Below, one piece after another: positions 9,005 through 31,602 of a DNA stretch of 53,583 nt. Made by a program: the position numbers and the translations under genes. This stretch comes from Prevotella sp. (GTDB lineage Bacteria > Bacteroidota > Bacteroidia > Bacteroidales > Bacteroidaceae). The notes beneath the pieces were generated by a model. That model was not told where the DNA came from. It did no database searches and saw only the letters and a list, made by a program, of their open reading frames with translations. Within the stretch, counting starts at the first letter, position 1. Every line of letters starts with the position of its first letter. The stretch is taken from the NCBI GenBank assembly GCA_017548605.1, contig JAFYZT010000019.1, positions 1-53,583 of the forward strand, in the 5' to 3' direction.

Positions 9005-9016
9005 ATTTTCTTTTTT

Positions 9017-10180: not shown

Positions 10181-10217
10181 AGCACCCTCCCTTTGGGAGG
10201 GACGGGGTGGGTCTTTT
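10181..10217 (-). repeat. Dispersed palindromic repeat, inverted copy
   Basis: On the reverse strand this reads AAAAGACCCACCCCG then TCCCTCCCAAAGGGAGGGTGCT, matching copy 1 at 4589-4626. The rest of 10079-10402 holds only an AT-rich stretch and the promoter at 10305. Confidence 0.8.
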
Positions 10218-10304
10218 CATATCCCTTTGAGAGGACCAGAGTAGGTTTCTTTATTGTTTTTTGAAAAAAAATGTAGTTTTTTAGGCTGTTTCGTTTTTTT
10301 TTCG

Positions 10305-10312
10305 TATGTTTG
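10305..10312 (+). promoter_or_regulatory. -7 box of the DUF349 gene
   Basis: TATGTTTG follows a long T tract, about 90 bases before the ATG; no TTG at -33. Confidence 0.5.
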
Positions 10313-10402
10313 CAGTTTGAAAGTGTAAGCGCGGAGGATGTGAATATCCTTTCCTTTCTTACCTAATGACTTGAAACGCAACCCTAACCAAAACGTCAAA
10401 CG

Positions 10403-12652: not shown

Positions 12653-12674
12653 TATGCTTATCGCCATCTACCTT

Positions 12675-12716
12675 AACAACACGGACATCGCCTTATAGGG
12701 CGAGTCCGTGTTGTTG
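12675..12716 (+). terminator. Terminator-like hairpin after the DUF349 gene
   Basis: AACAACACGGACATCGCC and GGGCGAGTCCGTGTTGTT form a long stem with a small loop and one mismatch. There is no uniform T tract, so it may be a processing or partial terminator element. Confidence 0.6.
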
Positions 12717-12752
12717 TTATATTCCGAACATCATCACGAACGAGAGAATAAC

Positions 12753-14417
12753 ATGAAACACTTATTTGCTTTTCTACTATTGAGCATGCTGTGCACCATT
12801 GGCGTTGCCCAGCCGGTAAGGGAAACACCAATTAAAAACCCGATGCTGTGGGCTGACGTGCCCGACCCTGATGTCATCCGCGTGGGTGATACGTTTTATC
12901 TGGTCAGTACCACCATGCACCTGATGCCAGGTGCACCCGTCATGGCATCGAAGGACCTGAAAAACTGGGAGACCGTAGGCTATATCTTCGACAAGCTGAC
13001 CGACTCGCCGAAGTACGACCTCGCTTTCTCATTGCCGCTCGACCAGCAACAGGGCGAGGGCGTAGGCACCGTCTATGGTCGCGGACAGTGGGCCACGTCG
13101 CTGAAGTACCACGACGGTAAGTTCTGGGCACTGTTGGCACCCAATGAGATGAGTGCCATGGGCGACACCTATATTTTCACTGCACCGAAGGCCGAGGGAC
13201 CGTGGACCATCCACTCACGCCTACGCCACTTCCACGATGCCACACTGTTCTTCGACGATGATGGCACGCCTTATGTGTTTTTCGGAACGGGTGAGATGTG
13301 CCAACTGACACGCGACCTGAAGAACGTCGTCGAGGGCAGTCTGCGCCATTATTTCCAGCGTGAGGATGAGGAGCGCGGCCTGTTGGAAGGTACCCGTGTC
13401 ATCAAGCACCACGGCACCTACTATGCCATGCTCATCAGCCAGTCGTATGGCAACGGTCTCCATCGTCGTGAGGTGTGTTACCGCACGAAGGACCTGAACG
13501 GCACATGGGAGAAGAATGTCATCTTAGAGAGCGACTTCGGCGGTTTCTACTACCTGGCACAGGGCACCATCGTCGACACCGAAGAAGGCGACTGGTACGG
13601 CATCATGTTCCAGGATCGTGGCGGTGTGGGCCGCGTGCTGACACTATCGCCCGTCCGTTGGATTGACGGCTGGCCGATGCTGGGCGACGAGAACTATAAG
13701 GTGCCCGACATCATGCGTCCCTACAAGAGCGGTCAACCCGCCAAAGGCATTGTCCTGCCCGATGATTTCGACGGCCCGAAGCTGGGCCTGCACTGGCAGT
13801 GGAACCACAACCCCGTGGACAAGGCATGGAGCCTGACGGAGCGACCAGGATTCCTGCGACTGAAGACAAGCCGCGTGGTGCCAAACCTCTACCTAGCACC
13901 CAATACGCTGACACAACGCACGGAAGGACCAACATGCAGCGGCTACATCTGCATGGACTTGTCAAAGATGAATGATGGCGACTGTGCCGGATTCAGCGCT
14001 TTCAACGGCGACAGCGGAGTACTGACCATCAAGAAGAACGGCAAGAAATACACGCTGGAGATGAGCGAACAGAAAGTGAGCCTGACCGAACGTGAGAAGG
14101 CCGTGACGAAAGTGGAAGAGAAGGTTGTTGAAGCCGTCGACCTCACCAAGCTGCTCAGCTCCAAACAGCCGAAAATATGGCTGCGTATCGACGGTGATTT
14201 CCGTCCCGGTGAGCGTGGTGGACGTGACGCTGCCAACTTCTTCTACAGCCTCGATGGTGAGCAGTGGACACAAATTGGCACGAAGGACTACCGCATGATT
14301 TTTGACTATCGTCGTTTCTTCATGGGCTCGAAATTCGCCATCTTCAACTATGCCACGAAGAAGGTCGGCGGCTATGTCGATGTAGATTATTTCAAGTACC
14401 ACTGTGACGAGAAATAA
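12753..14417 (+). CDS. Glycoside hydrolase family 43 protein (beta-xylosidase/arabinofuranosidase-like)
   Basis: This 554-residue exported enzyme has a signal peptide (residues 1-19). The N-terminal GH43 five-bladed propeller shows the three expected acids: Asp38 in VPDPDVIRVGD (general base), Asp162 in FHDATLFFDDDG (pKa modulator) and Glu212 in LLEGTRVIK (general acid). After about residue 345 comes a beta-sandwich like the Concanavalin-type C-terminal domain of GH43 xylosidases (DDFDGPKLGLHWQWNHNP, RPGFLRLKTS, NFFYSLDGEQWTQIG). It probably trims xylan or arabinoxylan side chains or oligomers in the periplasm. ATG 12753 is chosen because the signal peptide starts there; the frame extends upstream into the hairpin region. 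There are no SusCD genes nearby, so it is a stand-alone enzyme. Confidence 0.92.
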   Translation: MKHLFAFLLLSMLCTIGVAQPVRETPIKNPMLWADVPDPDVIRVGDTFYLVSTTMHLMPGAPVMASKDLKNWETVGYIFDKLTDSPKYDLAFSLPLDQQQGEGVGTVYGRGQWATSLKYHDGKFWALLAPNEMSAMGDTYIFTAPKAEGPWTIHSRLRHFHDATLFFDDDGTPYVFFGTGEMCQLTRDLKNVVEGSLRHYFQREDEERGLLEGTRVIKHHGTYYAMLISQSYGNGLHRREVCYRTKDLNGTWEKNVILESDFGGFYYLAQGTIVDTEEGDWYGIMFQDRGGVGRVLTLSPVRWIDGWPMLGDENYKVPDIMRPYKSGQPAKGIVLPDDFDGPKLGLHWQWNHNPVDKAWSLTERPGFLRLKTSRVVPNLYLAPNTLTQRTEGPTCSGYICMDLSKMNDGDCAGFSAFNGDSGVLTIKKNGKKYTLEMSEQKVSLTEREKAVTKVEEKVVEAVDLTKLLSSKQPKIWLRIDGDFRPGERGGRDAANFFYSLDGEQWTQIGTKDYRMIFDYRRFFMGSKFAIFNYATKKVGGYVDVDYFKYHCDEK

Positions 14418-14439
14418 TGAGTTGAAAGAATACCCCCGG

Positions 14440-14519
14440 CCCTCTCAAAAGAAGGGTGCATAAGATAACAAAAGAAGCGCTTCATGTGAAGCGCTTCTTT
14501 TGTCGTTGGGATACTCGGA
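14440..14519 (+). repeat. 80-bp island-end repeat, left copy, with tRNA-Gln 3'-end core
   Basis: This matches 23892-23971 over 80 bases with 6 differences, three of them in a hairpin loop. It contains a copy of the palindromic repeat family (14431-14465), a terminator hairpin and, at 14505-14520, the 16-base core GTTGGGATACTCGGAC that is also the 3' end of tRNA-Gln (reverse strand, 25832-25847). It lies just outside the integrase gene, as an attachment site would. Confidence 0.75.
14468..14503 (+). terminator. Terminator hairpin inside the left island-end repeat
   Basis: AAAAGAAGCGCTTC and GAAGCGCTTCTTTT form a 14-bp perfect stem with a 4-base loop. It ends the GH43 transcript and, read leftward, would fit a tRNA terminator. 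The same hairpin is at 23920-23955. Confidence 0.8.
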
Positions 14520-14625
14520 CAACAAATAGGTAAAATGAACGAAATTCTAATGAATCCATTATTATCATAAATATCAGATATATAGACGATTATATAACTA
14601 TATAATTTTAGTTCGATTTTATGTA

Positions 14626-14666
14626 ATCACGCCAATTTTTAGAATATCACGCCAAAAATACGCCAA
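14626..14666 (+). promoter_or_regulatory. Direct repeats upstream of the integrase
   Basis: ATCACGCCAA occurs at 14626-14635 and 14646-14655, exactly 20 bases apart, with a partial third copy (ACGCCAA) at 14660-14666. Their position between the att-like core and the integrase promoter fits integrase arm-type or excisionase/repressor sites. The rest of 14520-14798 is AT-rich without other signals. Confidence 0.4.
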
Positions 14667-14671
14667 AAAGT

Positions 14672-14703
14672 TTGGTTCGATTCCTTTTTTTTATTTACCT
14701 TTG
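14672..14703 (+). promoter_or_regulatory. Promoter of the integrase
   Basis: TTG 14672-14674 and TACCTTTG 14696-14703, 21-base spacer, about 95 bases upstream of the integrase ATG. Confidence 0.65.
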
Positions 14704-14798
14704 CAAATAAGTTTTTTACAATATTATTACCTCAACAAAGAACAAGTTTGGAGTGATGTCTCTCATCATTTTCATCATCATTTTAGATATTGGTCGTT

Positions 14799-16328
14799 AT
14801 GGCACAAATAGAACTGAGATTATCAAACAAGATGCAAAAGGAAACGGAAATGAGTGAAGTGCTCATCCGTTTCTATCAAGGTACGAAGTTTAATACAAGA
14901 GCAAAAAGCGGTATCTTTGTCTCTCCACAATTCTTTGAATACTACATTGACAGAGATAAAACAGAGAAATTGGGGGTGAAGATTCCGGGACATATTACTA
15001 CAGCAACCTCGGAAAAGGCAAAGAGGCTTCACTATGTTTTACGCCAAAGTGGAACAGTCGTTGTTTTACAACGACTTGAAACTCCCGATGTCAAGTATCA
15101 CAGAGAGCAATTGGCAAAACTGAATGAATTGAAGAAGTTGATTGTAGAGTCTTACGAATCCAATAGAGATAAGATAATGTCGAGTGATTGGCTCCAGTTG
15201 ATTGTTGACAAATACCATGACCCCACTAAATATGAGATTAAACCAGAAAACAAAGGTTCCTTTTTTGAACTTGTGGAGGAATATATTGAAAAGCGTCAGT
15301 TGGCAGATTCCCACGCTCGTGTTTTTCGGGTATTGTCAAGAGCAATTGCAAGATTCCAAGGATTTGTCAGGTCTACAGATAAAGACAAGAGCGATTATGA
15401 GTTTGACATTGACAAAGTAACACGTGATGACATAGAAAGACTGACATCTTATCTTCGAAACGAAAAGAAACTGTCTGAGGATTATCCCAAGTTATTTAAA
15501 AAACTTATCAATGATTATCCTGCTGCTGTCAAAAAAGGACACAACCGTCTTGAGGAGCGAGGTGAGAACACGATTATCAAAATGCGCACCAGGTTGAAAT
15601 CGCTCTTCCTTTTCTTCTACGAAGAGGGGCTGACCACCAACAGGCCATTTGATGGCGTAAAGATTGGAACGGCAAAGGTGGGGACACCATATTACATTAC
15701 AATAGATGAACGCAACAAAATAGCCGAAACCAATCTTGAAGAAAAATGGAAGACGATGGATGAGGATTTCAAGAAAAAATGCAAGATGCCTATTCAAACG
15801 CTGATTACATGTAGGGACATTTTCGTTTTCCAATGTTTGATAGGTTGTAGAGTCAGTGATTTGATAAAACTCACTCCAGAGCACATAAACAATGGTATTC
15901 TTGTATATACACCACACAAGACCAAAGACGAAGGAGATGAGTCCATTCAAGCTCGTGTTCCATTACATGCCAAAGCCCAAGAACTAATAAAGAAATACAA
16001 GGGTGTTGATAAGATGGGAAGACTATTCCCATTTATTACAGCTCAGAAATACAATGATGCCATCAAGGCGATTTTTACTATGGCAGGAGTGACGCGCAAC
16101 GTAGAAGTACGCAACCCTCTTACTGGCGAAAATGAAATACGCCCAATCAATGAAATCGCTTCAAGTCATCTTGCACGTCGCACTTTCGTTGGAAATGCAT
16201 ATTTCAAAGTTAGTGATCCAAATCTGATTGGAAAAATGTCTGGTCATGTTGATGGATCCAAGGCTTTCAAGCGATATCGTAAAATCGAGGATGAAACATT
16301 GAAGAATGTGATTGACATGATAGGATAA
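14799..16328 (+). CDS. Tyrosine recombinase / site-specific integrase
   Basis: This 509-residue protein has the three-part layout of Bacteroidetes integrative-element integrases: an N-terminal arm-binding domain (MSEVLIRFYQGTKFNTRAKSG), a SAM-like core-binding domain (about 165-300) and a C-terminal catalytic domain. Catalytic residues are visible: Arg351 in IGCRVSDLIK, Lys in PHKTKDEG, His457-x-x-Arg460 in SHLARRTF, His in MSGHVDGSKAF, and the nucleophile Tyr493 in KRYRKI. So it should be active in strand exchange. It lies about 280 bases inside the left island-end core, transcribed away from it. ATG 14799 is used; an upstream TTG at 14790 is less likely. Target is inferred to be the tRNA-Gln 3' end. 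Confidence 0.95.
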   Translation: MAQIELRLSNKMQKETEMSEVLIRFYQGTKFNTRAKSGIFVSPQFFEYYIDRDKTEKLGVKIPGHITTATSEKAKRLHYVLRQSGTVVVLQRLETPDVKYHREQLAKLNELKKLIVESYESNRDKIMSSDWLQLIVDKYHDPTKYEIKPENKGSFFELVEEYIEKRQLADSHARVFRVLSRAIARFQGFVRSTDKDKSDYEFDIDKVTRDDIERLTSYLRNEKKLSEDYPKLFKKLINDYPAAVKKGHNRLEERGENTIIKMRTRLKSLFLFFYEEGLTTNRPFDGVKIGTAKVGTPYYITIDERNKIAETNLEEKWKTMDEDFKKKCKMPIQTLITCRDIFVFQCLIGCRVSDLIKLTPEHINNGILVYTPHKTKDEGDESIQARVPLHAKAQELIKKYKGVDKMGRLFPFITAQKYNDAIKAIFTMAGVTRNVEVRNPLTGENEIRPINEIASSHLARRTFVGNAYFKVSDPNLIGKMSGHVDGSKAFKRYRKIEDETLKNVIDMIG

Positions 16329-16364
16329 AAAACAATGTTATAGATAATATTGGTTTTTTTTGTG

Positions 16365-16372
16365 TAACTTTG
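16365..16372 (+). promoter_or_regulatory. -7 box of the AlbA-type gene (probably leaderless)
   Basis: TAACTTTG ends six bases before the ATG at 16379. The nearest TTG (16350) is only 12 bases upstream, so the -33 element is poor. Confidence 0.5.
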
Positions 16373-16378
16373 CAGACT

Positions 16379-17803
16379 ATGACGAAAGAAGAATTATTGA
16401 AGCGTATAAGCGGTGTTGAGTGGGAGGACTTTGAATGCAAAGAAGCCCTTGACGAACTGCCAAAGAATGTCTGGGACTCTGTAAGTGCTTTCAGTAATAC
16501 TGCAGGTGGATGGGTGGTGCTTGGCATCAAGGAAACAAAGAAGAAAACAGGTAGTGTCTTTACTGTAACAGGTGTCAACAATCCTGAGAAGATGGAACAG
16601 GACTTTATCAGCACTCTCCGGTCAAAGACGAAATTCAACACCGTCATCTTCTTCAAAGTACAGATGTATGATATTGACGGCCACAAGGTGTTGGCCTTTT
16701 GGATTCCGTCTTCGAGCATTAAGCCTGTCTATTTCAACAACAACATACAAAACACATTCATCCGTTGCGGAAGTGGGGACCAGCGTGCAACAGATGGTGA
16801 GATTGCGGCCATACAGCGTGATCAGGCGTTCGGCAGCCGTTCTGAGATAGAAGTCCCAAGAACAAGCATGGACGACTTGAATAGAGGTTCACTTGATACG
16901 TTTAGAAGGAGAATGCGCCAGTTCAATGAAAGTTCTCCCTATAATGAACTCCCAGATGACATGTTCTGTAGAAAGACTGGCATCACCTCTAACGGTTGTC
17001 TGACCTACGGCGGGTTGCTCATGTTTGGCAAGGGCGATGTGGTGAAGGAACATGTGCGCAACTTTTGGATAGACTATATTGAGATTCCGGGCACATCATA
17101 CGCAGATGCAGAAGAGCGATACACATTCAGGATGCAAGAGCAGGAGAACATTTGGGAATCCTATCAAGCCATTTATCAGAGACTAAGATTGTATGTTGAC
17201 AATCCATTCACTGCTGGGCCAGATGGATTTTCCCCTGACGACAACTCGCAATTGTACTGTCTTCGTGAGGGTCTTGTCAACTTTTGCGCCCACGCCGATT
17301 ATTTCAGTCCCATGCATCCGACGATACGCAAATTCGACGACCGTATTGAGTTTCAGAACCCTGGGAGTTTCATTGTTGGTATCGATGTGGTGAAAACCAA
17401 GAACGCATCGTTCCCTCGCAATCCGACCATCATCAATCTGTTCCGATATGTCAAACTTTCCGAAAGTGCGGGCTATGGTATAGACAAGATTCTTCGATGG
17501 GAAAAACTGACAAAACAAGCTGTGGATTTCGAGACAAGCATCTTGTATTCCACCATAACATATCACTTACCTAAAAGTAATACGAAAAGTAGTACGAAAA
17601 GTAATACGAAAAGTAGCACGAAAAATGAAAAGACCATTATTTCTGCCATTCGCTCTAACCCAACACTTTCCATAACAGATATGTGTCCTATAACTGGGTT
17701 GTCACGGAGTGGTGTTCAGAAAATTATTATAAGATTAAGGCAACAGGGTGTTCTTCGAAGAGTCGGCCCTGCTAAAGGTGGCTATTGGGAAATCATCGAG
17801 TAA
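16379..17803 (+). CDS. AlbA_2/Schlafen-type ATP-binding putative regulator
   Basis: The product has 474 residues. The N-terminal domain is AlbA_2 (Schlafen AlbA-like): EWEDFECKEALDELP and SAFSNTAGGWVVLGI (about residues 15-50) are the family hallmarks. The middle resembles the C-terminal ATPase-type domain of this family (HATPase_c_4), with REGLVNFCAHADY, IEFQNPGSF, RNPTIINLFRYVKLSESAGYGIDKI. A Ser/Thr/Asn/Lys linker made of four 12-base repeats (17576-17623) leads to a C-terminal winged helix (ITDMCPITGLSRSGVQKIIIRLRQQGVLRR). Such proteins are often called transcriptional regulators and are common cargo of mobile islands; some relatives act in phage defence. Which applies here is unknown. 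The start is fixed by a -7 box ending six bases upstream. Confidence 0.88.
   Translation: MTKEELLKRISGVEWEDFECKEALDELPKNVWDSVSAFSNTAGGWVVLGIKETKKKTGSVFTVTGVNNPEKMEQDFISTLRSKTKFNTVIFFKVQMYDIDGHKVLAFWIPSSSIKPVYFNNNIQNTFIRCGSGDQRATDGEIAAIQRDQAFGSRSEIEVPRTSMDDLNRGSLDTFRRRMRQFNESSPYNELPDDMFCRKTGITSNGCLTYGGLLMFGKGDVVKEHVRNFWIDYIEIPGTSYADAEERYTFRMQEQENIWESYQAIYQRLRLYVDNPFTAGPDGFSPDDNSQLYCLREGLVNFCAHADYFSPMHPTIRKFDDRIEFQNPGSFIVGIDVVKTKNASFPRNPTIINLFRYVKLSESAGYGIDKILRWEKLTKQAVDFETSILYSTITYHLPKSNTKSSTKSNTKSSTKNEKTIISAIRSNPTLSITDMCPITGLSRSGVQKIIIRLRQQGVLRRVGPAKGGYWEIIE
17576..17623 (+). repeat. 12-bp coding microsatellite in the AlbA-type gene
   Basis: Four units AGTARYACGAAA encode Ser-(Asn/Ser)-Thr-Lys. 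The period is a multiple of three, so slippage would change linker length without a frameshift. Confidence 0.9.
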
Positions 17804-17817
17804 GAAATGGCAGCAGT

Positions 17818-17970
17818 ATGACATACAAGAGCCTCTGGAAGAAGGACCGCCCCCTTTGCTTCGACTATGAGATGGTCTGTGAGAAGTATGACATCAACCT
17901 TGATTCCGTGACGGAAGAGGCTACTGACGACAAGAAGCCTCAGAAGGAGCCGGAAGTACTCCCGTTCTGA
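17818..17970 (+). CDS. Short protein downstream of the AlbA-type gene, unknown
   Basis: An ORF of 50 codons begins 14 bases after the AlbA-type stop and ends 10 bases before a strong terminator, so it is probably the last gene of that transcript. The frame also reads through from 17785, but ATG 17818 is the first after the upstream stop. The protein is charged: a basic N-terminus (MTYKSLWKKDRP), a Cys/Tyr-containing middle (CFDYEMVCEKYDI) and an acidic Lys/Glu-rich end. No family recognised. It could be an antitoxin-sized or partner protein, but nothing in the sequence shows this. Confidence 0.55.
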   Translation: MTYKSLWKKDRPLCFDYEMVCEKYDINLDSVTEEATDDKKPQKEPEVLPF

Positions 17971-17980
17971 AACAATGGCG

Positions 17981-18016
17981 AAGGACAGCCGTCAATGAAT
18001 GGCTGTCCTTTTTTCT
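17981..18016 (+). terminator. Terminator of the AlbA-type transcript
   Basis: AAGGACAGCC (17981-17990) pairs perfectly with GGCTGTCCTT (18001-18010), 10-base loop, followed by TTTT. Confidence 0.9.
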
Positions 18017-18050
18017 TTGCTTTCAAAAAAACAAAAATCCGAAAAAGGCG

Positions 18051-18270
18051 TGTGGCATTTGTGGCATCGTGTGGCATCGCTGATAATCAGCGAGATAGAG
18101 CACAAATTCGTTGTGGCAACAATGTGGCATCGTGTGGCATTCTTCCGATTACCCATAGTTGTTGTGGCATGATTGTGTCATTCTATCTATGATTATAAGA
18201 GAAGGATAAATCTATTGTCTCTGATTTTCAGTCAATTATAGTTTTTGCCACAGATGCCATAAATGCCACA
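18051..18270 (+). repeat. TGTGGCA iteron-like array
   Basis: Seven exact TGTGGCA copies begin at 18051, 18060, 18070, 18112, 18123, 18133 and 18163. Three inverted copies begin at 18246, 18255 (one mismatch) and 18264. Neighbouring copies are mostly 9-11 bases apart, about one helical turn. A perfect 15-base palindrome CGCTGATAATCAGCG sits at 18078-18092. It lies in the longest gene-free stretch of the island and looks like a multi-site binding region for a replication, excision or transfer protein. Confidence 0.75.
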
Positions 18271-18771
18271 GGGGTAATATACGAAATAATTTTTTTGCTG
18301 AGGGTGGTTTCGTATTTTACTATGCCAACAGATAACCTAGGATTGGTGTTGCTAGAAAAGCGATATCGAATCATGTTTCTTCCCTGGTGGTCAGTCCGTC
18401 CCCATAAACCATATTAAAATCTCCGTCCCCGCGATTCATATCATCGTCGTCATTATCATCCTCGCAGCCTGCAACTCCGTCCCGTGATTAAAAAACAACT
18501 ATGAAGAATGAGAACTCATAATTCAAACTCTATTTTTGCTGTTGTTCAACTGTAAGGCAATTCAGAATCGCAGGGACAGGTTTGATTCTTCTGCTCACAC
18601 GGGAGCTGGCATCCATGCCCACTTCCAATGCCTAACACACCTGATGAAGGGTAATTTTCCATAGGCTATGACGCTCTACTTTTTATAATGCTTTGGTTTT
18701 TAGAAATTTACAGTTTATCCTTATTTGCTTATTTTCCATAGGAAACTGATACAACTATCGAAAAAACAACG
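18271..18771. other. Gene-free island DNA, no clear feature
   Basis: No ORF with coding character was found. Two 12-base copies of ATTTTCCATAGG (18654-18665 and 18731-18742) precede the next promoter. A short reverse frame near 18380-18483 reads VAGCEDDN followed by Asp/Gly-rich residues, like the start of a lipoprotein, but has no start codon and soon stops; it may be a relic. Confidence 0.5.
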
Positions 18772-18779
18772 TAACTTTG
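18772..18779 (+). promoter_or_regulatory. -7 box of the TPR regulator/surface protein operon
   Basis: TAACTTTG lies 19 bases before the ATG; no TTG at the expected -33 distance. Confidence 0.5.
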
Positions 18780-18798
18780 CAACCGAGAATTATTCATT

Positions 18799-20250
18799 AT
18801 GCATTCGAAGTCAATATACATATTTATTATAGGCATTCTGATGATTGCTTGTGGTCCGTCTCATAAGGAGGCAGATTCACAGACGGCAAAAAGTTGTCTG
18901 GAGGAGGCAGAGACAGCTTTGAACAACGACAGCATCCGCTTGGGTGAGACCTTGCTTCGGAAAACCATCCATCTGGCAGAAGCGTCTGAGGATTGGCACA
19001 CCTGTTATATCGCATACCAGCGGTTGGCGGAATCATTGTCGCAGAGCAATCCGGAGGAGGCATTGAGACAAATGATGAAAGCCCTGACCATTTACGAGCA
19101 GCATCCTGACGATGAGCGAAACCATGTCATTCTGATGGATTATGCCGGTACATACGCAGCACAAGTGGCTTTCATTAAAGAGGGAACCTTCGATGAAGCA
19201 CTCGGGTTCATCAACAAAGCATACGCCATAGCTGAGAAAAACCAGATGACCGACCTGATGTGCCAGACGCTCACCAGTCTTGCGAACATAGCATGGGCAA
19301 AAGAAGACTATCGTCTAGCTGTCGACCATGCCCGTCATGCGGAAACCATGGCAACAGACCACCTGCGACCTGGTACGTTACAGGTTCTCGCTCGCAGTTA
19401 TCTCAGCCTCAACATGCTCGATTCGGCAGAAACGGTCTATCGACAGATTGAGCCTGGAGAAGATGTCCATATGGCATACATCGTCCAGAGCAGCCTTGCC
19501 AAGATTGCACTTCGACGGATGAATGCCAAACAGGTGGAAGACGATATTGAGGAAGCCTTTGAGCAAATAGAAGACTTCTATTACAATGCATTAGAACAGA
19601 AGGATTTGTACTACCAGGAGACGCTGAGACAGGAAAAGGCGAATCAGCAACTTGAATACCGCAACCAGTTATATGCCCGTACCCTTCTGATTGTCATCAT
19701 TGCAGCAGCAATCATCATCCTCGTGGTTGTTATGGCTCTCCGGTATCGCATCCGCATGATTCATCGTCAGCGGGAATACGAGCAATCGAAATTGGAAAAC
19801 GAACTGTTTATGCAGGAACAGGAGAAGCATCGACTCCAGCAGGAGGCAGAACATCAGAAGACCCAACTGCACCAAGCTAACGAAGTGGTGGCATTCCTTC
19901 AGAACTTCATCCTCGAACGTTCGGAGGTGATGAAGAAACTGAACCAACAGAACCAAAGAGGCGATTCGCTCATCACCCTCAAAGCACATGAATGGAAAGA
20001 GATAGAACGCACTCTCAACGCCATCGACAACGACCGTTTTGCCCATATCCGTGAGCAATACCCTGACATGCAGGAAGATGACATACGCCTGTGCATCCTT
20101 ACCCGACTCGATATCAGCAACCGCACCATTGGCAACATCTACTGTATCACCATCTCAGCCGTCCAGCATCGTAAACTCAAGTTGAAGAAGGACGTGTTTG
20201 GAGAAAGTAATCCAGACATCACGCTGGAACAGGTAATCAATAGCAAATAA
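18799..20250 (+). CDS. Membrane-anchored TPR protein with cytoplasmic HTH-like domain
   Basis: The product has 483 residues. The N-terminus ends in a lipobox (LMIAC, Cys near 18), followed by TPR-like helical repeats (about 25-290: AETALNNDSIRLGETLLRK, ALGFINKAYAIAEKN, LSLNMLDSAETVYRQ). A transmembrane helix (about 294-316) is followed by a basic stretch, a coiled coil (EYEQSKLENELFMQEQEKH) and a C-terminal helix-turn-helix-like segment (LDISNRTIGNIYCITISAVQ). The layout suggests a one-piece sensor: periplasmic TPR, membrane anchor, cytoplasmic DNA-binding end. The gene at 44260-45993 has the same plan. It lies 20 bases upstream of the BspA/FSMP surface protein and probably controls or serves it; this is inferred from position only. 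Confidence 0.8.
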   Translation: MHSKSIYIFIIGILMIACGPSHKEADSQTAKSCLEEAETALNNDSIRLGETLLRKTIHLAEASEDWHTCYIAYQRLAESLSQSNPEEALRQMMKALTIYEQHPDDERNHVILMDYAGTYAAQVAFIKEGTFDEALGFINKAYAIAEKNQMTDLMCQTLTSLANIAWAKEDYRLAVDHARHAETMATDHLRPGTLQVLARSYLSLNMLDSAETVYRQIEPGEDVHMAYIVQSSLAKIALRRMNAKQVEDDIEEAFEQIEDFYYNALEQKDLYYQETLRQEKANQQLEYRNQLYARTLLIVIIAAAIIILVVVMALRYRIRMIHRQREYEQSKLENELFMQEQEKHRLQQEAEHQKTQLHQANEVVAFLQNFILERSEVMKKLNQQNQRGDSLITLKAHEWKEIERTLNAIDNDRFAHIREQYPDMQEDDIRLCILTRLDISNRTIGNIYCITISAVQHRKLKLKKDVFGESNPDITLEQVINSK

Positions 20251-20270
20251 CAACCAAAAGTAAAAACAAT

Positions 20271-23200
20271 ATGAAAAAACAAATTCGTTTTCTTGTGATG
20301 ATGCTCCTGCCCATGATGGCGAGCGCACAGAGTTCCGTGAAGATTGACGATATTTATTATATGTTGAATACCGTTGACAAAACAGCAGAAGTGACTCGTG
20401 GAGGTTATTCCGGAGTTATTGTGATACCGTCAACGGTAACTAAAGATGATGTTGAGTATACCGTGACAAGTATTGCGTCGAATGCTTTCTACAACAGTCC
20501 CCAACTGACTTCTGTAACTATTCCAAAGAGTGTTACCACGATTAAATTAAGAAGAGATTTTTTCTATAACTGCAATAAACTGACCTCAATAGTTGTTGAG
20601 GAAGGGAACCCAAACTATGACTCTCGCGAAGGATGTAATGCACTTATTGAGACTGCCAGTAATAAACTGCTGTATGGAGCCAATAACTCGTTTATTCCCA
20701 ATAGTATTACGACCATTGGAGTGGCTGCATTTGAAAAACGTAATTTTACTACTCTTAGTATTCCCAATAGTGTGACAACCATAGAAGATGAAGCGTTTGC
20801 AAGTTGTTCTGAACTAACCTCTGTCTATATTGGAACAGGCCTGGAGAACATCGGTGAATATATTTTTGAAGAATGCAATAAGCTGAAAACGGTTGAGATA
20901 AACAGCAATGCGTTGGTATCTAAGAATTACACTAGCGAAGAGAAGAATGTATCATGCCTTTTCTGGGACGCTACTGTTGAAGAAATAGTGTTAGGAGAGG
21001 AAGTGACGAGTGTTGGCGATTACGCATTCTCTGGGAGTAGTATGAAATCTATCAAGATGTCCGACAATCTGATAAGTATCGGAAACTATGCCTTTTGGCA
21101 ATGTAGGTTAACCTCCATAGATTTTTCAAATAATCTGGAATACATCGGGAAATGGGCGTTCGCAGCTTGCTTTCCACTTCCTTCCGTTACCATACCTGAA
21201 AGCGTAAAGTGTATAGATTTTTTAGCATTCCAATGGTGTAACGCATTAACCAAAGTTGTCGTAAAAAGCAATGAGGTTGTAGCAAGAGACAATGATCAGT
21301 TCTATACATTAACGAGCTGTTTTGGCAAACAGGTTGAAGAGTATGTTTTGGGAGAAGATGTCAAGAAGATAGCATATATCGCTTTCGCAGAGAGTGACAA
21401 ACTAACTTCTGTCACCATTTCCAACTATTTGACATGCATTGATGATAGCGCATTTCACATGTGTACCAGCCTGACAGACGTGTATTGCTATGCAGAACAA
21501 GTGCCAGAGACTGGTAAGGATGTTTTTCTCTCTTCAAATTACACAAATGCTACACTCCATGTGCCTGCTTCATCTGTTGAAGCATATAAAAACGCAGAAC
21601 AATGGAAGGACTTTAAGGAAATAGTAGCACTGCCGACTATGGATGATTACTGTATGATGGTAAAAGATGGCAAAGTATGGAAGACTGGAATCTACGGCTC
21701 AGGCAATCCTGTGCGGCATGTCGAGTATTTCTACTTCGATGGTGACACCGTCATAGACGGGAAAACCTGCAAGCAGATGATGTGCCAGCAGTATTACAAC
21801 GATGATGATTCACAACATTCATCATTGAGTTACGTTGGAGCATGGTATGAAGAGGACAAGAAAGTTTACACTTACGACACGACAAACAAGCAATTTGTAC
21901 TGAAGTACGACTTCTCCGTTGATGCCAATGACACCCTGCAGATCAATCAGGAACATTATAGGATAGGTCCATGGCAGATAGGAGGAATAAAAGGCTTCAA
22001 GGGTGTTTATAGAGATGTTTGGTTTTTGGCGGAAGAAGGCCCCATCTACAGCCCATCTTGGTTGGAAGGAGTAGGAAGTATTGATGGCCCGACAGTAAAC
22101 GTCTATCCTGGGTATGTTGACCCTTTAAGATTCCTCATGTCATGTACCGTTGATGACGAAGTCATCTACTTCAACGACGGATATGAGGATGGAGCCACAC
22201 CAGAGAAGATGAATGCCAACAAGCACCGTTTCGACTTCACCCATACCGTCAAGACACAGCCCAAAGCACCGGGTATGGGAGGGAAAGAAAGGCCAAAAGG
22301 AGTCGCGTCAGCGGATACGCAGTCGATATATGGTGAATACAGCCAACAACAGTTGAGCATTCACCTCGAACCGCTCATTGAAACCTACGTGGTATGTATT
22401 ACAAACGAATCAAACGAGGTCGTCTATGAAAAAACCATCAATACAGTTGGTATTGTCGGCCTCAACATCGACATCTCCACCTATGCAAAAGGTTGTTATA
22501 CGGCAACTGTGGAGAATAGCAATGAATCTTTCGTTGGAGAATTCGAAATGCAAGCCACTGGGAATGAAATCACCTTGTCCTGTCCCGATGACAACCATCC
22601 CCATGCCATCGACCTCGGACTGCCTTCAGGAACGAAATGGGCGTGCTGCAATGTGGGCGCGTCTACCCCTGAGGGATATGGTGGCTATTACGCCTGGGGG
22701 GAGACGGAAGAGAAGGACTATTACAGTTTATCAACCTACATCCATTACGACGACTCTTCAAGCACCTACCACGATCTCGGCAGCGACATCGCCGGCACAC
22801 AGTACGATGTTGCCCACGTGAAGTGGGGTGGCTCTTGGGTGATGCCGTCGAAAGACCAAAACCAGGAACTGATAGAAAACTGCAACTATGAATGGATAAT
22901 AGTCAATGATGTCATGGGAGCCCAATTCACCGGCCCAAGCGGTGGCACTATCTTCTTGCCTGCGGCCGGCAACCGCTCTGCTGGAGACCTCTACTACGCC
23001 GGCAGCAGCGGCTACAATTGGTCGTCCACGCAGGAGCCGCCGTACTCGTACAGCGCCTACCGCCTGTACTTCAATTGGTACAACGCGTACTGGAGCTACG
23101 GCAATTACCGCTACTGCGGTCACACGGTCCGCCCTATTATCGGAGACACCAACGGCATCAATCTTCCAAATTCATCTTCCGAAATATCAAACCAGGCCAT

Positions 23201-23303
23201 TTACAACATCTATGGCATAAAAGTTGCATCTAACCCGAAAGAAATAGGCAACCTTCCCTCAGGCGTTTACATCTTCAACGGCAAAAAAACCGTAATAAAG
23301 TGA
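20271..23303 (+). CDS. BspA-like leucine-rich surface protein with FSMP domain and T9SS tail
   Basis: This 1010-residue exported protein has a signal peptide (1-20). BspA-type LRR_5 repeats follow from about residue 45 to 445 (LTSVTIPKSVTTI, TLSIPNSVTTIEDEAF, LTSVTISNYLTCIDDSAF), then a central domain (about 450-650). An FSMP domain spans about 775-960 (HAIDLGLPSGTKWA, YAWGETEEKD, WVMPSKDQ, FLPAAGNRS, ending GHTVRPI). A T9SS-type sorting tail ends the protein (IYNIYGIKVAS, NLPSGVYIFNGK). BspA-like proteins bind host or matrix proteins and other bacteria. The FSMP section (22570-23145) is clearly more GC-rich than the LRR part, so the gene looks mosaic. Residues about 897-957 are rich in Tyr, Asn, Ser and Trp on a C-type-lectin-like scaffold. 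It is the second gene of an operon with the TPR regulator. Confidence 0.9.
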   Translation: MKKQIRFLVMMLLPMMASAQSSVKIDDIYYMLNTVDKTAEVTRGGYSGVIVIPSTVTKDDVEYTVTSIASNAFYNSPQLTSVTIPKSVTTIKLRRDFFYNCNKLTSIVVEEGNPNYDSREGCNALIETASNKLLYGANNSFIPNSITTIGVAAFEKRNFTTLSIPNSVTTIEDEAFASCSELTSVYIGTGLENIGEYIFEECNKLKTVEINSNALVSKNYTSEEKNVSCLFWDATVEEIVLGEEVTSVGDYAFSGSSMKSIKMSDNLISIGNYAFWQCRLTSIDFSNNLEYIGKWAFAACFPLPSVTIPESVKCIDFLAFQWCNALTKVVVKSNEVVARDNDQFYTLTSCFGKQVEEYVLGEDVKKIAYIAFAESDKLTSVTISNYLTCIDDSAFHMCTSLTDVYCYAEQVPETGKDVFLSSNYTNATLHVPASSVEAYKNAEQWKDFKEIVALPTMDDYCMMVKDGKVWKTGIYGSGNPVRHVEYFYFDGDTVIDGKTCKQMMCQQYYNDDDSQHSSLSYVGAWYEEDKKVYTYDTTNKQFVLKYDFSVDANDTLQINQEHYRIGPWQIGGIKGFKGVYRDVWFLAEEGPIYSPSWLEGVGSIDGPTVNVYPGYVDPLRFLMSCTVDDEVIYFNDGYEDGATPEKMNANKHRFDFTHTVKTQPKAPGMGGKERPKGVASADTQSIYGEYSQQQLSIHLEPLIETYVVCITNESNEVVYEKTINTVGIVGLNIDISTYAKGCYTATVENSNESFVGEFEMQATGNEITLSCPDDNHPHAIDLGLPSGTKWACCNVGASTPEGYGGYYAWGETEEKDYYSLSTYIHYDDSSSTYHDLGSDIAGTQYDVAHVKWGGSWVMPSKDQNQELIENCNYEWIIVNDVMGAQFTGPSGGTIFLPAAGNRSAGDLYYAGSSGYNWSSTQEPPYSYSAYRLYFNWYNAYWSYGNYRYCGHTVRPIIGDTNGINLPNSSSEISNQAIYNIYGIKVASNPKEIGNLPSGVYIFNGKKTVIK

Positions 23304-23491
23304 GAGTAAAAATAAGCTCACTTGAGGTCTTCCAAACATGAACGATTTAGAGCAACGCTCAAAATCGGATTAATATGACGACTGAATATTGAAGATAGGA
23401 ACAAGTTCTTGTAAATCCAATTAAACCGAATAAAAACCTACTGAAAATCAGTTTAACAAAAGATTTTTGAACCCCTAAAAAAGGTTTTTGA

Positions 23492-23623
23492 TTGTTTTGT
23501 GCTGTCGGCATTTTCGAATACTTTTGCAGTGTTTGAAGGTGCCGACAACTGTGTTTGGCAGTTTTTATAGCAAGAGGTTTTTTCGTAACACGAAAAACTC
23601 TTGAACACCTGGCGACAGGTGTT
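23492..23623 (+). promoter_or_regulatory. Promoter and hairpin cluster upstream of the mobilization gene (oriT-like)
   Basis: TTG 23497-23499 and TACTTTTG 23519-23526 (19-base spacer) form a promoter. An 8-base inverted repeat, TGTCGGCA (23503-23510) and TGCCGACA (23540-23547), flanks its -7 box. Further on are two hairpins: CAAGAGGTTTTTTCGT with ACGAAAAACTCTTG (23571-23603), and AACACCTG-GCGA-CAGGTGTT (23604-23623, perfect). Inverted repeats just upstream of a mob gene are typical of transfer origins of Bacteroides mobilizable elements. The remainder of 23304-23679 is plain AT-rich sequence. Confidence 0.5.
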
Positions 23624-23679
23624 GAAAACGGAGTACTCGCAGGCTCGCACCTCTATGTTGAATACTTAATGATTTTGAA

Positions 23680-24018
23680 ATGAAGGATAACGACACACCC
23701 AAGAGAATCATGAGGAGAAGGGGAAGACCTCGCAAGTCAACGACCGAAAACTCCCCAACCAGAAAGACCCGTACACTCCGACTCACGGAGGAGGAGGTAA
23801 AACTCATTACCGAAAACGCCAGACGATGCCACAAGAACTTCAGCGAATACTGCCGCCAGGTGCTTATGGGCTACAAGCCCGGCGTGCCCGACCCTCTCAA
23901 AAGGAGGGTGCTAAAGATAACAAAAGAAGCGCTTCTCATGAAGCGCTTCTTTTGTCGTTGGGATACTCGGATAATCGGGTGCGAAATCGTATGCAATCGA
24001 AAACAATTAACTGCGTGA
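23680..24018 (+). pseudogene. Mobilization accessory protein (MobC-like), truncated at an island junction
   Basis: The first about 70 residues read as a plasmid/transposon mobilization protein of the MobC/relaxosome type. A basic N-terminus (RRRGRPRKSTTENSP) is followed by a ribbon-helix-helix-like segment (TRTLRLTEEEVKLITENARR) and the family-like CHKNFSEYCRQVLMGYKP. The reading then runs into the 80-bp island-end repeat at about 23886-23892, and the remaining 40 or so codons are repeat and foreign sequence, not mobilization protein. Full-length relatives are longer and are followed by a relaxase gene, which is missing here. So the gene was cut by recombination at the middle att-like core, and the element has lost its transfer functions. 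The oriT-like hairpins upstream support the assignment. Confidence 0.7.
23892..23971 (+). repeat. 80-bp island-end repeat, middle copy
   Basis: It aligns to 14440-14519 over 80 bases with 6 differences and keeps the terminator hairpin and the core GTTGGGATACTCGGA (23957-23971). Genes on both sides are cut at it: the mobilization gene from the left, a TonB-domain gene from the right. Confidence 0.78.
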
Positions 24019-24152
24019 TTTCCTTGAATTTCTTTCATTTCTTTAGGATAATGCATGTTATGTGCGAGCCATGACATCAGTTCCCCTTGTCCGCCAGGGA
24101 AACTAGCACGTATTTCCGCAATTTGCATATTTGCTTCATCAGATTCGTCTAT
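23972..24152 (-). pseudogene. Truncated TonB C-terminal domain, continuing the frame of the upstream gene past a TAG
   Basis: Directly after the TAG stop (24153-24155) of the 357-residue protein, the same reverse frame continues through DESDEANMQIAEIRASFPGG, QGELMSWLAHNMHYPKEM and KEIQG. This is the beginning of a TonB C-terminal (energy transduction) domain, as in the neighbour at 25253 (HFPEGNGALLHWLSQKIHYP). The similarity ends about 50 codons on, at the middle island junction. Either the upstream gene once carried a C-terminal TonB domain, lost by an amber mutation and a later deletion, or this was a separate tightly spaced gene starting at ATG 24128. Confidence 0.6.
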
Positions 24153-25226
24153 CTAATCCAAATCAGCCAAGGATAGTTCACCTATTTTCTCCATCTTTTT
24201 CAAAGATTTGATATGACCTGTAAGAGAGTCAAACTTTGCATTTAATGTAGAAAACACTATTGTATTGTTACAACAATCATAATCCGCTGTAATTGATAAG
24301 ACAGGTATCACAATTTCTCCTTTTGCAACCAGTCTCCAATGGCCATCTTCTTGTTTGAATATTTCGATAAGCCAACGAGGAACTCCATACCCAATAGGAA
24401 TGAACTTAAAAAACAAGCATGAATGACCAATTGTCATACTCTTTGTATAATAATCTACCATATCACCACACTGCGAATATAATTCATTTTTCATTTGAAG
24501 CGTATCAGCACAAATGGTTTGTTCTATTTCATCTTTGCTTTTCCATTCAATCTCTCTCTTGTATGATTCGTGGACAACCTCATGATCCCAATCTCCATTA
24601 TAGACAGAATCCATCAACTCGTTGACATACTTGACTAGGGCATTCTGCTGTTCGTAAGATTGTGCCTGTAGGTTTCCGATGAAGAATACCCATTTCGTTC
24701 CATCCAATACAGAGTGTTCCTTGTCTTCTGCATTTTGGATTGCATCTGTCCACATCTTTTTCAGTGTCTGTAACTGTTCGTCGGTGATAGAGAGCAAACG
24801 GGTTGTCAAGCGAGGAGCCTCGTATTTGTGGATACGTTTCCGTGGTACCACCTTTCCTCTGTTCTTGCCTACTGTCTTGTATATGGTGGTAGCTTTCCTC
24901 GTGGCATCATGGATGCTTCCCAACACTTTGGTGTAAACGAGGGTGTGGCTGATGGAATCGTATGTCAATGATGATTCGGGAGAGAAATAAGGTACATGAG
25001 TCAGAGGTGATTCGGAATGGGAGGAAGGTATACGAATAACGCCGAACAGAGTATGCTCCGGAACAAGCAACCGAGCCAATTCCTTGTCGTAGAGAGACAA
25101 AGTTAAATCTTTCTGTCGCCATGCAATTGATGCGCTGTCAACACGTGTGAGTCTGTCCTGTGCAAATCCGGATAAAGAGAAAAGGACAATTGCCAAAACG
25201 AAAAAAGGTTTTGAAATCTTATTCAT
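24153..25226 (-). CDS. Exported protein of unknown function (possibly missing a TonB-type C-terminal domain)
   Basis: The product has 357 residues, with signal peptide MNKISKPFFVLAIVLFSLSG cleaved near FAQ (residue 23). No family was recognised. The protein has mixed alpha/beta character; the central stretch SITDEQLQTLKKMWTDAIQN, WVFFIGNLQAQSYEQQ and the C-terminal VPRWLIEIFKQEDGHWRLVA stand out. The stop at 24153-24155 is a TAG in frame with a TonB C-terminal-domain fragment immediately downstream, so the original product may have been longer. It is divergent from the TonB-domain gene at 25253, with only 26 bases between start codons, hinting at a joint function. The gene sits in the short second segment of the island. 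Confidence 0.75.
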   Translation of the reverse strand: MNKISKPFFVLAIVLFSLSGFAQDRLTRVDSASIAWRQKDLTLSLYDKELARLLVPEHTLFGVIRIPSSHSESPLTHVPYFSPESSLTYDSISHTLVYTKVLGSIHDATRKATTIYKTVGKNRGKVVPRKRIHKYEAPRLTTRLLSITDEQLQTLKKMWTDAIQNAEDKEHSVLDGTKWVFFIGNLQAQSYEQQNALVKYVNELMDSVYNGDWDHEVVHESYKREIEWKSKDEIEQTICADTLQMKNELYSQCGDMVDYYTKSMTIGHSCLFFKFIPIGYGVPRWLIEIFKQEDGHWRLVAKGEIVIPVLSITADYDCCNNTIVFSTLNAKFDSLTGHIKSLKKMEKIGELSLADLD

Positions 25227-25252
25227 AAATTCATGTTTTTCTTTTATAACGT

Positions 25253-25741
25253 ATGGTTTATTGGATTTATTACAGGAATAAGAGATTACGATTGGACATC
25301 TTGCTTCTTGTTTTGTTCTGCTCTATGGGAGCAGCAGCGCAAACAGAAGACATAACACGAAGCAACGACCAGCCGTTGTCTCTCCAATCAACGAATGAAA
25401 GAGATTCTAATTCGGGAGGGGAATATATCGGCAAGGTTTATGACGTACTGGATGAAAATCCCCATTTCCCAGAGGGAAACGGCGCTCTTCTTCATTGGTT
25501 GTCACAAAAAATCCATTATCCATCAGGGTGCGCTTGTGTTCAGGGGCGAGTGGTGATATCTTTCTTTGTTGAACCAGATGGCTCTTTAAGCGAAATTGAG
25601 TTAGTGCGAGAAGTTGACCCAACGCTTGACGAAGAGGCTCTCCGTGTAGTAAAAGCCATGCCAAAGTGGATTCCTGCAAAGCAGAATAACAAACCGATAA
25701 GAGCGAAAATGACTATGCCCATCGAATTCAGATTGGAATGA
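25253..25741 (+). CDS. Exported TonB C-terminal-domain protein
   Basis: The product has 162 residues. An N-terminal basic patch and hydrophobic stretch (LDILLLVLFCSMGAAAQ) form a signal sequence or anchor. After a linker, residues about 65-162 are a TonB C-terminal domain: NPHFPEGNGALLHWLSQKI, CVQGRVVISFFVEPDG, VVKAMPKWIPAKQNNKPI, MPIEFRLE. Unlike TonB itself there is no proline-rich spacer, so it is of the short, single-domain type seen often in Bacteroidetes near peptidases and regulators. It may bind an outer-membrane partner or act as a scaffold. Its start codon is 26 bases from that of the divergent gene at 25226, which has remains of the same domain at its own 3' end. Confidence 0.85.
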   Translation: MVYWIYYRNKRLRLDILLLVLFCSMGAAAQTEDITRSNDQPLSLQSTNERDSNSGGEYIGKVYDVLDENPHFPEGNGALLHWLSQKIHYPSGCACVQGRVVISFFVEPDGSLSEIELVREVDPTLDEEALRVVKAMPKWIPAKQNNKPIRAKMTMPIEFRLE

Positions 25742-25786
25742 TAGGTTCTATATAAGTCGGGAAAAAGTCGGGAATTATAGACATGC

Positions 25787-25827
25787 AAAAATCGCCAAGC
25801 ACTGATATTCAGCGACTTGGTGATTTT
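25787..25827 (-). terminator. Terminator after tRNA-Gln
   Basis: On the reverse strand AAATCACCAAG and CTTGGCGATTT form an 11-bp stem with one mismatch, followed by T residues. It differs completely from the hairpin that adjoins the other two core copies. Confidence 0.75.
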
Positions 25828-25831
25828 CTGT

Positions 25832-25847
25832 GTTGGGATACTCGGAC
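25832..25847 (+). repeat. tRNA-Gln 3'-end core (intact att-like copy)
   Basis: GTTGGGATACTCGGAC is the complement of the tRNA-Gln acceptor 3' strand and part of the T-stem. Identical cores lie at 14505-14520 (16 bases) and 23957-23971 (15 bases). Only here is it followed by the rest of the tRNA. Confidence 0.75.
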
Positions 25848-25903
25848 TCGAACCAAGAATGACAGGACCAGAATCTGTAGTGTTACCATTACACCATATC
25901 CCA
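25833..25903 (-). tRNA. tRNA-Gln (CTG anticodon)
   Basis: The reverse strand folds into a cloverleaf: acceptor TGGGATA/TATCCCA with the weak first pair T-A typical of tRNA-Gln, D-stem GTGT/ACAC, anticodon loop TTCTGGT with anticodon CTG, and T-arm CTTGG-TTCGAGT-CCGAG. The anticodon stem closes with an A-C mismatch. CCA is not encoded. Its 3' end is the core repeated at the island junctions. Confidence 0.9.
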
Positions 25904-25932
25904 ATAAAGATACAATTCTCTAATTGCAACTG

Positions 25933-25963
25933 CAAAGGTACGGCGTTTTTCCGAAACTTCCAA
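25933..25963 (-). promoter_or_regulatory. Promoter of tRNA-Gln
   Basis: On the reverse strand TTG (25961-25963) and TACCTTTG (25933-25940) are 20 bases apart; the tRNA starts 30 bases downstream. Confidence 0.65.
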
Positions 25964-26044
25964 ACAATTTCCCTTTTTTTTCTAAAAAAAATGTAATTCA
26001 GAACTATTTTACGGTTGTTTTCATGAAAATACCATAAATATGAG

Positions 26045-26052
26045 TAACTTTG
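26045..26052 (+). promoter_or_regulatory. -7 box of rsfS
   Basis: TAACTTTG, 25 bases before the rsfS ATG. The nearest TTG is 27 bases upstream, longer than usual. Confidence 0.5.
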
Positions 26053-26077
26053 CAATTCAAAAACACATTATCATTGA

Positions 26078-26437
26078 ATGGATCCAACAAAGAAATTAGT
26101 ACGTTACATCATCAAGGGAATACAAGAGAAAAAAGGTAGCGGCATCGTCGTAGCCGACCTGAGTAAGATAGACGGCACCATCTGTCGCTATTTCGTTATC
26201 TGTCAAGGCAATTCACCCATGCAGGTGGAAGCTATTACCGAGTCAGTGAGCGACACTGTACGAGAAAAACTGAACGAGAAACCTCTGCGCACGGTGGGTC
26301 AGGAGAATGCCCTGTGGGTGGCCATGGATTATGTGGACGTGATGGTTCACGTGTTCGTACCCGACATGCGCGAATACTATAACCTGGAAAACCTGTGGCA
26401 GGATGCCAAACTGACCAAAGTGGAAGACATTGATTAA
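26078..26437 (+). CDS. rsfS: Ribosome silencing factor RsfS (Iojap family)
   Basis: This 119-residue protein matches RsfS, which binds L14 on the 50S subunit and blocks subunit joining in starvation. Family motifs are in order: IIKGIQEKKGSGIVVADLS, ICRYFVICQGNSPMQVEAI, ALWVAMDYVDVMVHVFVPDM and REYYNLENLWQDA. No signal peptide. It lies upstream of ftsH with a 78-base spacer made almost wholly of GGTAAAA-type repeats. An rsfS-ftsH-cdsA order is, as far as I know, usual in Bacteroidetes, so the three are probably one operon. Confidence 0.95.
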   Translation: MDPTKKLVRYIIKGIQEKKGSGIVVADLSKIDGTICRYFVICQGNSPMQVEAITESVSDTVREKLNEKPLRTVGQENALWVAMDYVDVMVHVFVPDMREYYNLENLWQDAKLTKVEDID

Positions 26438-26508
26438 GGGTAAAAGGGTAAAAAGGTAAAAAGGTAAAAAGGTAAAAAATTGAAAGGGTGAAAGGGTAAA
26501 AAATCAAA
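26437..26508 (+). repeat. GGTAAAA-type tandem repeat between rsfS and ftsH
   Basis: About eight units of 7-8 bases (GGGTAAAA, AGGTAAAA and variants) fill the spacer and begin at the rsfS stop codon. Confidence 0.8.
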
Positions 26509-26515
26509 TAGAGAT

Positions 26516-29421: not shown

Positions 29422-29452
29422 GACCCACCCCGGCCCTCCCAAAGGGAGGGGG
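29422..29452 (+). repeat. Dispersed palindromic repeat after cdsA
   Basis: GACCCACCCCGG followed by CCCTCCCAAAGGGAGGG begins at the base after the cdsA stop; short GGGGTGA-type units follow to about 29480. Confidence 0.8.
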
Positions 29453-29552
29453 TTGAGGGGAGGGGGTGAGGGGTGAGAGATTACCCTTCAGTCCTGTGCG
29501 ATAACGAAACAATGAAGGCTGAAGGCCTCAAAGCGATAATAATTACACTTTA

Positions 29553-31555: not shown

Positions 31556-31602
31556 TGAAAGCAAAAAAAGGATATTCGTATAATCTATAACTAATTAAAC
31601 CT

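Follow-up and report, generated by a model that had tools for sequence, protein, structure and literature searches.

The 3′ end of a tRNA-Gln(CTG) gene in Prevotella sp. is probably occupied by a decayed composite island, which spans positions 14505–25846 of contig JAFYZT010000019.1 (assembly GCA_017548605.1; the whole stretch of 53,583 nucleotides is referred to as the window). Two segments, S1 of 9.5 kb and S2 of 1.9 kb, lie stacked behind a single tRNA gene and are bounded by three copies of a short core, in agreement with the outline drawn by a first-pass annotation of the sequence. We assign a probability of roughly 80% to this reading as a whole, including the history proposed below. Islands of this type are already known; the present example is well preserved and has an unusually clear truncation junction. 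The empty site, fuller relatives elsewhere and the exact break point of a truncated integrative mobilizable element (IME) together form a base-level record, of use for locating mobile elements and their boundaries in uncultured rumen bacteria, although no principle is changed by it.

An empty site in genome G387 (locus L120; genomes and loci of the comparison carry G and L numbers) shows that 14505–25846 is an insertion at tRNA-Gln. G387 is a related species whose flanks resemble those of the window more closely than at any other locus examined, and its gene order is CorA, DUF349, GH43, hairpin, core, tRNA-Gln and RsfS. The left flank of the island (7347–14520) aligns with L120 2781–9939 at 85.5% identity over 7,268 bp, and the right flank (25832–32000) aligns with L120 9924–16089 at 88.6% over 6,193 bp. 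Because the site is empty in G387, with the two alignments overlapping by the core and one base only, the DNA between them is inserted. The first-pass annotation had suggested looking for a strain in which the left flank joins tRNA-Gln through a single core, and this is the arrangement at L120. On the left, the nearest chromosomal gene encodes a GH43 glycosidase (12708–14417, + strand; Pfam Glyco_hydro_43 and GH43_C2), with a 97% identical protein beside the empty site. The right neighbor (26078–26437, + strand), which we take to be rsfS, is 98% identical next to tRNA-Gln at L120, and its orthologues were traced by tblastn. The G+C content is 43% in S1 and 41% in S2, compared with 53%–54% in the flanks. 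This usable empty site was found through a survey of tRNA cores. A search of 299 genomes, not including G387, with the GH43 end and flanking DNA matched at least 192, GH43 being common; in G009, G086, and G266, compared by eye, GH43 and tRNA-Gln lie on different contigs and no further empty site was seen.

The core, GTTGGGATACTCGGA, occurs on the + strand at 14505–14519, 23957–23971 and 25832–25846, exact in all three positions. An intact tRNA-Gln(ctg) gene (25832–25903, − strand) has core 3 as its 3′ end, so the pattern match and ARAGORN agree with the first-pass annotation on both the positions and the tRNA. With up to two mismatches allowed, the window holds these three matches only, whereas shuffled sequences gave a mean of 0.07 and none of 100 reached three. 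The same three are the only matches with at most one mismatch in the whole assembly (3.25 Mb in 55 contigs, ∼92% complete), and the core is not scattered over the assembly away from tRNAs. Core 1 is the distal attachment junction of S1, whose homology to genome G260 (locus L129) starts at 14498, i.e., at the core, and core 2 is an internal, attI-like junction.

Cores 1 and 2 are each preceded by a terminator hairpin of host type. H1 (14435–14504), which is now located at the island's far end, was identified by its match to L120 and by folding; window positions 14001–14520 share 93% identity over 521 bp with the stretch abutting tRNA-Gln at the empty site. The proposal that this hairpin was the original terminator of the tRNA gene is borne out by G387, in which GH43, hairpin, core and tRNA follow one another directly. 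A hairpin of the same kind is found at the tRNA in G206 and G166. H2, a second host-type terminator flank (23895–23956), is 91% identical both to H1 and to the L120 flank. The repeat (14435–14522 and 23887–23974) is 88 bp long with 91% identity; between 14443–14519 and its second copy, 6 of 77 bases differ, close to the 80 bp with six differences reported earlier, hairpin included. Each of these two hairpins folds with −26.5 kcal/mol (z = −8.8 and −8.4). The hairpin that now serves tRNA-Gln (25780–25831) differs from H1 and H2 (−20.5 kcal/mol, z = −4.5) and is of the type present at S2-like ends in G109, G260, and L139; the tRNA has indeed received a new terminator, as had been supposed, and it was supplied by the incoming segment S2. 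A generic terminator scan listed 14 sites, none of which is one of the three hairpins; energy folds detected all three. Stems of at least 10 were found in 27 of 59 tRNA-Gln 3′ flanks, against 2 of 59 5′ flanks and 1 of 59 shuffles, in a simple-stem test that overlooks the interrupted stem at core 3.

S1 carries a tyrosine integrase, cargo genes, an oriT-like region and a cut nikA gene. The integrase (14790–16328, + strand, 512 amino acids [aa]) starts 270 bp from core 1, as expected from the earlier description of an integrase beside the first core. It scores above the Pfam cut-off for Phage_int_SAM_5 and slightly below it for Phage_integrase (E = 1.2 × 10−5). Residues R354, K377, H460, R463, H486, and Y496, presumably the R-K-H-R-H-Y catalytic set of a tyrosine recombinase, are kept in 35 or more of the 36 integrases aligned, including this one. 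A search of solved structures with the integrase returned no recombinase, the single weak match being to an unrelated protein, and all 11 plasmid records matched share <60% identity with it. The cargo, all on the + strand, comprises an AlbA_2/HATPase_c_4/winged-helix protein (16370–17803; Pfam), a tetratricopeptide repeat (TPR) regulator-like protein (18799–20250; family match) and a BspA-type leucine-rich-repeat surface protein of 1010 aa (20271–23303; Pfam LRR_5). These are followed by a putative oriT region, which contains inverted repeats and precedes nikA (23568–23662, + strand), and by the 5′ part of a NikA/MbpA-like mobilization gene (23680–23894, + strand; Pfam NikA-like), which retains codons 1–71 and two bases of codon 72. 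There is no relaxase gene in S1 of the window.

Close relatives of S1 lie at tRNA-Gln in other species. In G260 (contig OMXV01000042.1), the proteins are 95% (integrase), 87% (AlbA_2), 93% (TPR, over residues 55–483) and 99% (BspA) identical, with RsfS only 72% identical to that of the window. DNA pieces of 87%–97% identity extend from the core onward and end at window position 23662, before nikA; within them, 23524–23662 is 94% identical, and 23568–23635 is 91% identical in L132. Position 7 of the G260 core is A in the distal copy and G in the tRNA copy, and if the element brought the A allele, exchange would have taken place within the first six bases of the core or immediately outside. The end terminators of G260 (L129 1040–1091 and 12008–12059) are nearly identical, with one difference in the hairpin, and are of a type other than H1 and H2. 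G086 contains the right half of S1 at 99.74% identity over 3,518 bp (nine mismatches), a block that includes the putative oriT; its contig starts inside BspA, so the comparison covers that half only (BspA 100%, rounded, over residues 37–1010). Identity stops exactly at window position 23894. Beyond this point, G086 has the full nikA (133 aa, the first 72 residues as in the window), a 412-aa MbpB-like protein (NCBIfam E = 7.4 × 10−26, scoring 91 bits where the curated cut-off is 400, and unmatched in Pfam), a 223-aa open reading frame (ORF) without a convincing family, a hairpin, the core and tRNA-Gln. Since G086 carries both beyond the break point, S1 of the window has lost most of the mobilization genes and its own right end, and it is the left and central part of an IME of which a fuller copy occupies the same tRNA gene elsewhere. 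The copies in G260 and G086 document IME transfer between probable rumen Prevotella species, and by this comparison S1 clearly moves between species.

The middle junction coincides with the break in nikA. The gene ends at 23894, and from 23895 it is succeeded by host-type flank, hairpin and core. Over 23887–23894, nikA and the H1 flank match at seven of eight bases (CCCGACCC and CCCGGCCC); 24 of the 37,824 possible pairs of nikA and flank break points match as well. The junction is a fusion, at this microhomology, of truncated nikA with a second host terminator and core. H2 shares with H1 bases that G387 lacks, yet differs from it at the six positions described above. At the divergence between S1 and G086, 0.2 differences between H1 and H2 would be expected (P = 7 × 10−8 for six), and because their divergence exceeds that rate, the H2 copy probably came from the locus of another strain. 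The first-pass annotation had a first element shift the tRNA gene and give it a new terminator, and that part holds; its explanation of the middle junction as a second insertion or a tandem copy gives way to a nikA-H2 fusion, in which H2 has diverged at 6 of 77 bases compared with 9 of 3,518 bp in S1. Exact-pattern scans of IMG/VR with the terminator-core and nikA pieces (26 bases of nikA) gave no match.

S2 (cores at both ends) contains no integrase and no transfer gene. Its left end (23972–24007, + strand) belongs to a stretch, 23957–24007, that is 92% identical over 51 bp to sequence beside the core in G109 (locus L087); with at most three mismatches this end occurs in two of 398 genomes, that of the window (G000) and G109. 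The two large ORFs of S2 are a 357-aa ORF without a family match (24153–25226, − strand) and a TonB C-terminal domain protein (25253–25741, + strand; Pfam TonB_C). In G109, 0.78 kb between two cores holds a 60% identical TonB-domain protein and lacks the 357-aa ORF. S2-like right ends are present in G224, G260, and L139, and a DNA search of 348 genomes with S2 matched at least 121, mostly in the TonB_C part. At its right end S2 has two copies of AAGTCGGGAA 11 bp apart (25754–25774, + strand), an arm-type pair that starts 78 bp before the core and differs in type from the pair at the S1 integrase. Bounded by attachment sites and devoid of integrase and transfer genes, S2 looks like a remnant of the cis-mobilizable element (CIME) kind, and the difference between the S1 and S2 arm types argues against its mobilization in cis.

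Putative arm-type repeats occur in S1 and at related integrase loci. In S1, ACGCCAA is found at 14629, 14649, and 14660 (14627–14669, + strand), the last two copies being 11 bp apart. Repeats of 10 bp (at least nine alike) with this spacing are present within 200 bp upstream of the integrase at 16 of 19 loci, some of which are near-identical and so not independent; base shuffles predict 0.08 of 19, and spacings of 9, 10, 12, and 13 give 0–2. The sequence of the pair varies with the integrase group (ACGCCAA, ACGGGAA, ACGATAA, TCCGAAT, and others). In each of the five fuller elements compared, the opposite end bears such a pair as well, 77–80 bp from the core in G086, L145, and L138 and ∼148 bp from it in L147 and L144, in which the integrase is beside the tRNA. 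We infer that these pairs are integrase arm sites. The ACGCCAA pair is present at the left end of S1 and at the right end of the G086 element; no arm pair is found at the right end of S1 in the window or in the left flanks of the window and L120. An integrase without a matching right arm would leave the island locked, and S1 is probably locked in place; poor excision and absence of self-transfer would follow from the loss of the mobilization genes and the right arm.

With respect to the target, a core with at most two mismatches lies within 400 bp upstream of the integrase at 18 of 22 named loci, a 23rd (L151) being excluded because it holds the C terminus only. Shuffles of the same upstream stretches had a median of five to six mismatches, and the best of 100 reached one or two at three loci. 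In a larger set of 36 loci, which includes the window and some duplicate records, 20 have the core. No such core was found in the 400 bp upstream at L090, L091–L101, and L148–L150; L089 and L130, which are the same contig, have 133 bp upstream only. Among the 23 named loci, 19 are labeled Prevotella, Prevotellaceae or Xylanibacter, and the other four Bacteroidales, Bacteroidia, uncultured bacterium, and Lachnospiraceae. Source names of several relatives mention rumen, reticulum, buffalo, deer, or cow, and from these labels and sources the host is probably a rumen Prevotella. tRNA-Gln(CTG) appears to be a recurrent landing site, with several integrase arm types. At L143, L144, and L147 (RUG10713, G106, and G338), a related integrase is directly behind tRNA-Gln and reads away from it, so that its orientation relative to the core is opposite to that in the window.

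In the history that we propose, the integrase would have recombined the core of the element with the 3′ end of the tRNA gene, each insertion restoring the tRNA and bringing a new terminator. Less certainly, DNA from the tRNA-Gln locus of a related strain (H2, core and tRNA side) may then have recombined with the S1-bearing chromosome, joined to it through homology at the tRNA side and, at the other, through the 8-bp microhomology inside nikA. This fusion would have cost S1 the remainder of nikA, the relaxase gene, the 223-aa ORF and its right arm repeats; S2 could already have been in the donor or have been inserted later. Of the two sides that characterize homology-facilitated illegitimate recombination, the microhomologous one is visible at 23887–23894 and the homologous one is presumed. 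That the allele of an S1-free strain cut the element in one step, with loss of the relaxase and right arm, return of the native terminator and locking of S1, is put forward tentatively, with the odds somewhat against it. If true, tRNA-Gln in this genus would be a site where gene exchange both catches and disarms mobile elements.

Several points weigh against the proposed history. Only one genome of the window's species is in the comparison. Of the six H1/H2 differences, three stand side by side in the hairpin loop and possibly arose in one event (P ∼5 × 10−5 for four), which weakens the divergence argument without removing it. Twelve of 14 further integrase loci have no such core in the 400 bp upstream, and the integrase family therefore has other targets too, with no family-wide specificity for tRNA-Gln. 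The arm sites are deduced from repeats, and 3 of the 19 loci (L141, L142, and L147) have no such pair beside the integrase. S1 could, moreover, have come from another strain in truncated form, H2 included: having gained its nikA-H2-core right end in another host, it would have integrated site-specifically at the core. The two cores and the integrase still present, the resemblance of H2 to the terminator of a sister lineage and the movement of S1 between species fit this course of events. Without relaxase and right arm repeats, however, both transfer and excision would need help, the 26-base nikA piece is unmatched in IMG/VR, and no second copy of the fusion was seen (among 200 genomes, nikA at >70% identity occurs otherwise only in G086, uncut, the junction itself not being part of the query). 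We consider such a ready-made arrival unlikely.

Local tandem duplication of H1 and its core, for example by unequal sister-chromatid exchange, would account for two copies that are 91% identical over 88 bp and share bases missing in G387. It was rejected as the source of the middle core, since 6 differences in 77 bp are out of keeping with an S1 that has diverged from that of G086 by 0.26% since the two separated, and it is quite improbable. Tandem tRNA-Gln genes in some genomes (G068 and G410) might suggest that the segments are the species' own chromosomal genes and the cores chance matches or relics of tRNA duplication. This is hardly credible: it is refuted by the empty-site alignment with G387, and S1 is closely similar in G260 and G086, its G+C content is low, it has an integrase, and the assembly contains no further core.

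IMEs and CIMEs arrayed in tandem at the 3′ end of a tRNA gene are known from earlier work, for example the composite island at tRNA-Lys of S. agalactiae, and Bacteroidetes IMEs are listed at tRNA-Leu, tRNA-Ser, and tRNA-Pro (PMC5704250). Analogous to such accretion, the present island has two tandem elements behind one tRNA gene, an internal attachment site and a decayed partner without integrase; in contrast to it, the integrase-bearing partner is truncated here, and its internal end is a fusion to a second host terminator rather than the element's own. S1 shares with NBU1 and the P. intermedia element MTnPi4, both at tRNA-Leu, a tyrosine integrase, a tRNA 3′ end and a mobilization module (PMC5704250; PMC4755523), but the target is tRNA-Gln(CTG), the cargo is BspA-type and the relaxase of the relative is MbpB-like, with none in the window copy. 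CTnDOT-type integrases, which have arm-binding domains (PMC8138268), are likewise Bacteroidetes-type tyrosine recombinases, and the near-core repeats fit arm sites, although those proposed here come from 11-bp-spaced pairs that differ between integrase groups. The proposed event would resemble homology-facilitated illegitimate recombination in having one presumed homologous side and one side with a few base pairs of microhomology (PMC6382021); here it is deduced from a single junction. The accessible portions of the open-licence literature on accretion and CIMEs, Prevotella tRNA-Gln islands, arm sites and rumen Prevotella IMEs contain no report of the present tRNA-Gln site that we could find, nor was a paper on terminator restoration found there.

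Across the genus, the core pattern GTTGGGRTACTCGGA was present in 140 of the 398 genomes searched, compared with 4 of 398 for the reversed pattern, the search being blind to genomes with other core variants. More than one copy was found in 10 of the 140: three in G000 and two each in G106, G109, G260, G270, G283, G338, G347, G376, and G410. The copies of G410 are those of tandem tRNA-Gln genes, those of G283 belong to two tRNA-Gln genes on two contigs, and in G270 and G376 the copies are likewise split over two contigs. Tandem tRNA-Gln(ctg) genes, separated by ∼100 bp and each having a core of its own, were seen at L119 (G410) and L085 (G068). At L112 (G347), cores at 6999 and 9760, in opposite orientation and 2.8 kb apart beside DUF349 and tRNA-Gln, possibly reflect an inverted insertion. 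At L108 (G112), L070 (G126), and L124 (G393), tRNA-Gln is inverted with respect to the neighboring DUF349 and rsfS genes, and in G126 an element lies on the rsfS side of the tRNA gene.

The tblastn match of the DUF349-type protein ends 42–215 bp from the tRNA-Gln core in the ten loci measured. When L120, L121, and L122 were compared, the window and G387 proved to have GH43 between DUF349 and the terminator of the tRNA gene, whereas it was not found in the loci of G206 or G166, and GH43 may itself be a lineage-specific arrival. At its N terminus (∼10490–10900), the DUF349-type protein of the window has a long run of alanine, proline, valine, and glutamate with repeats of ∼11 residues.

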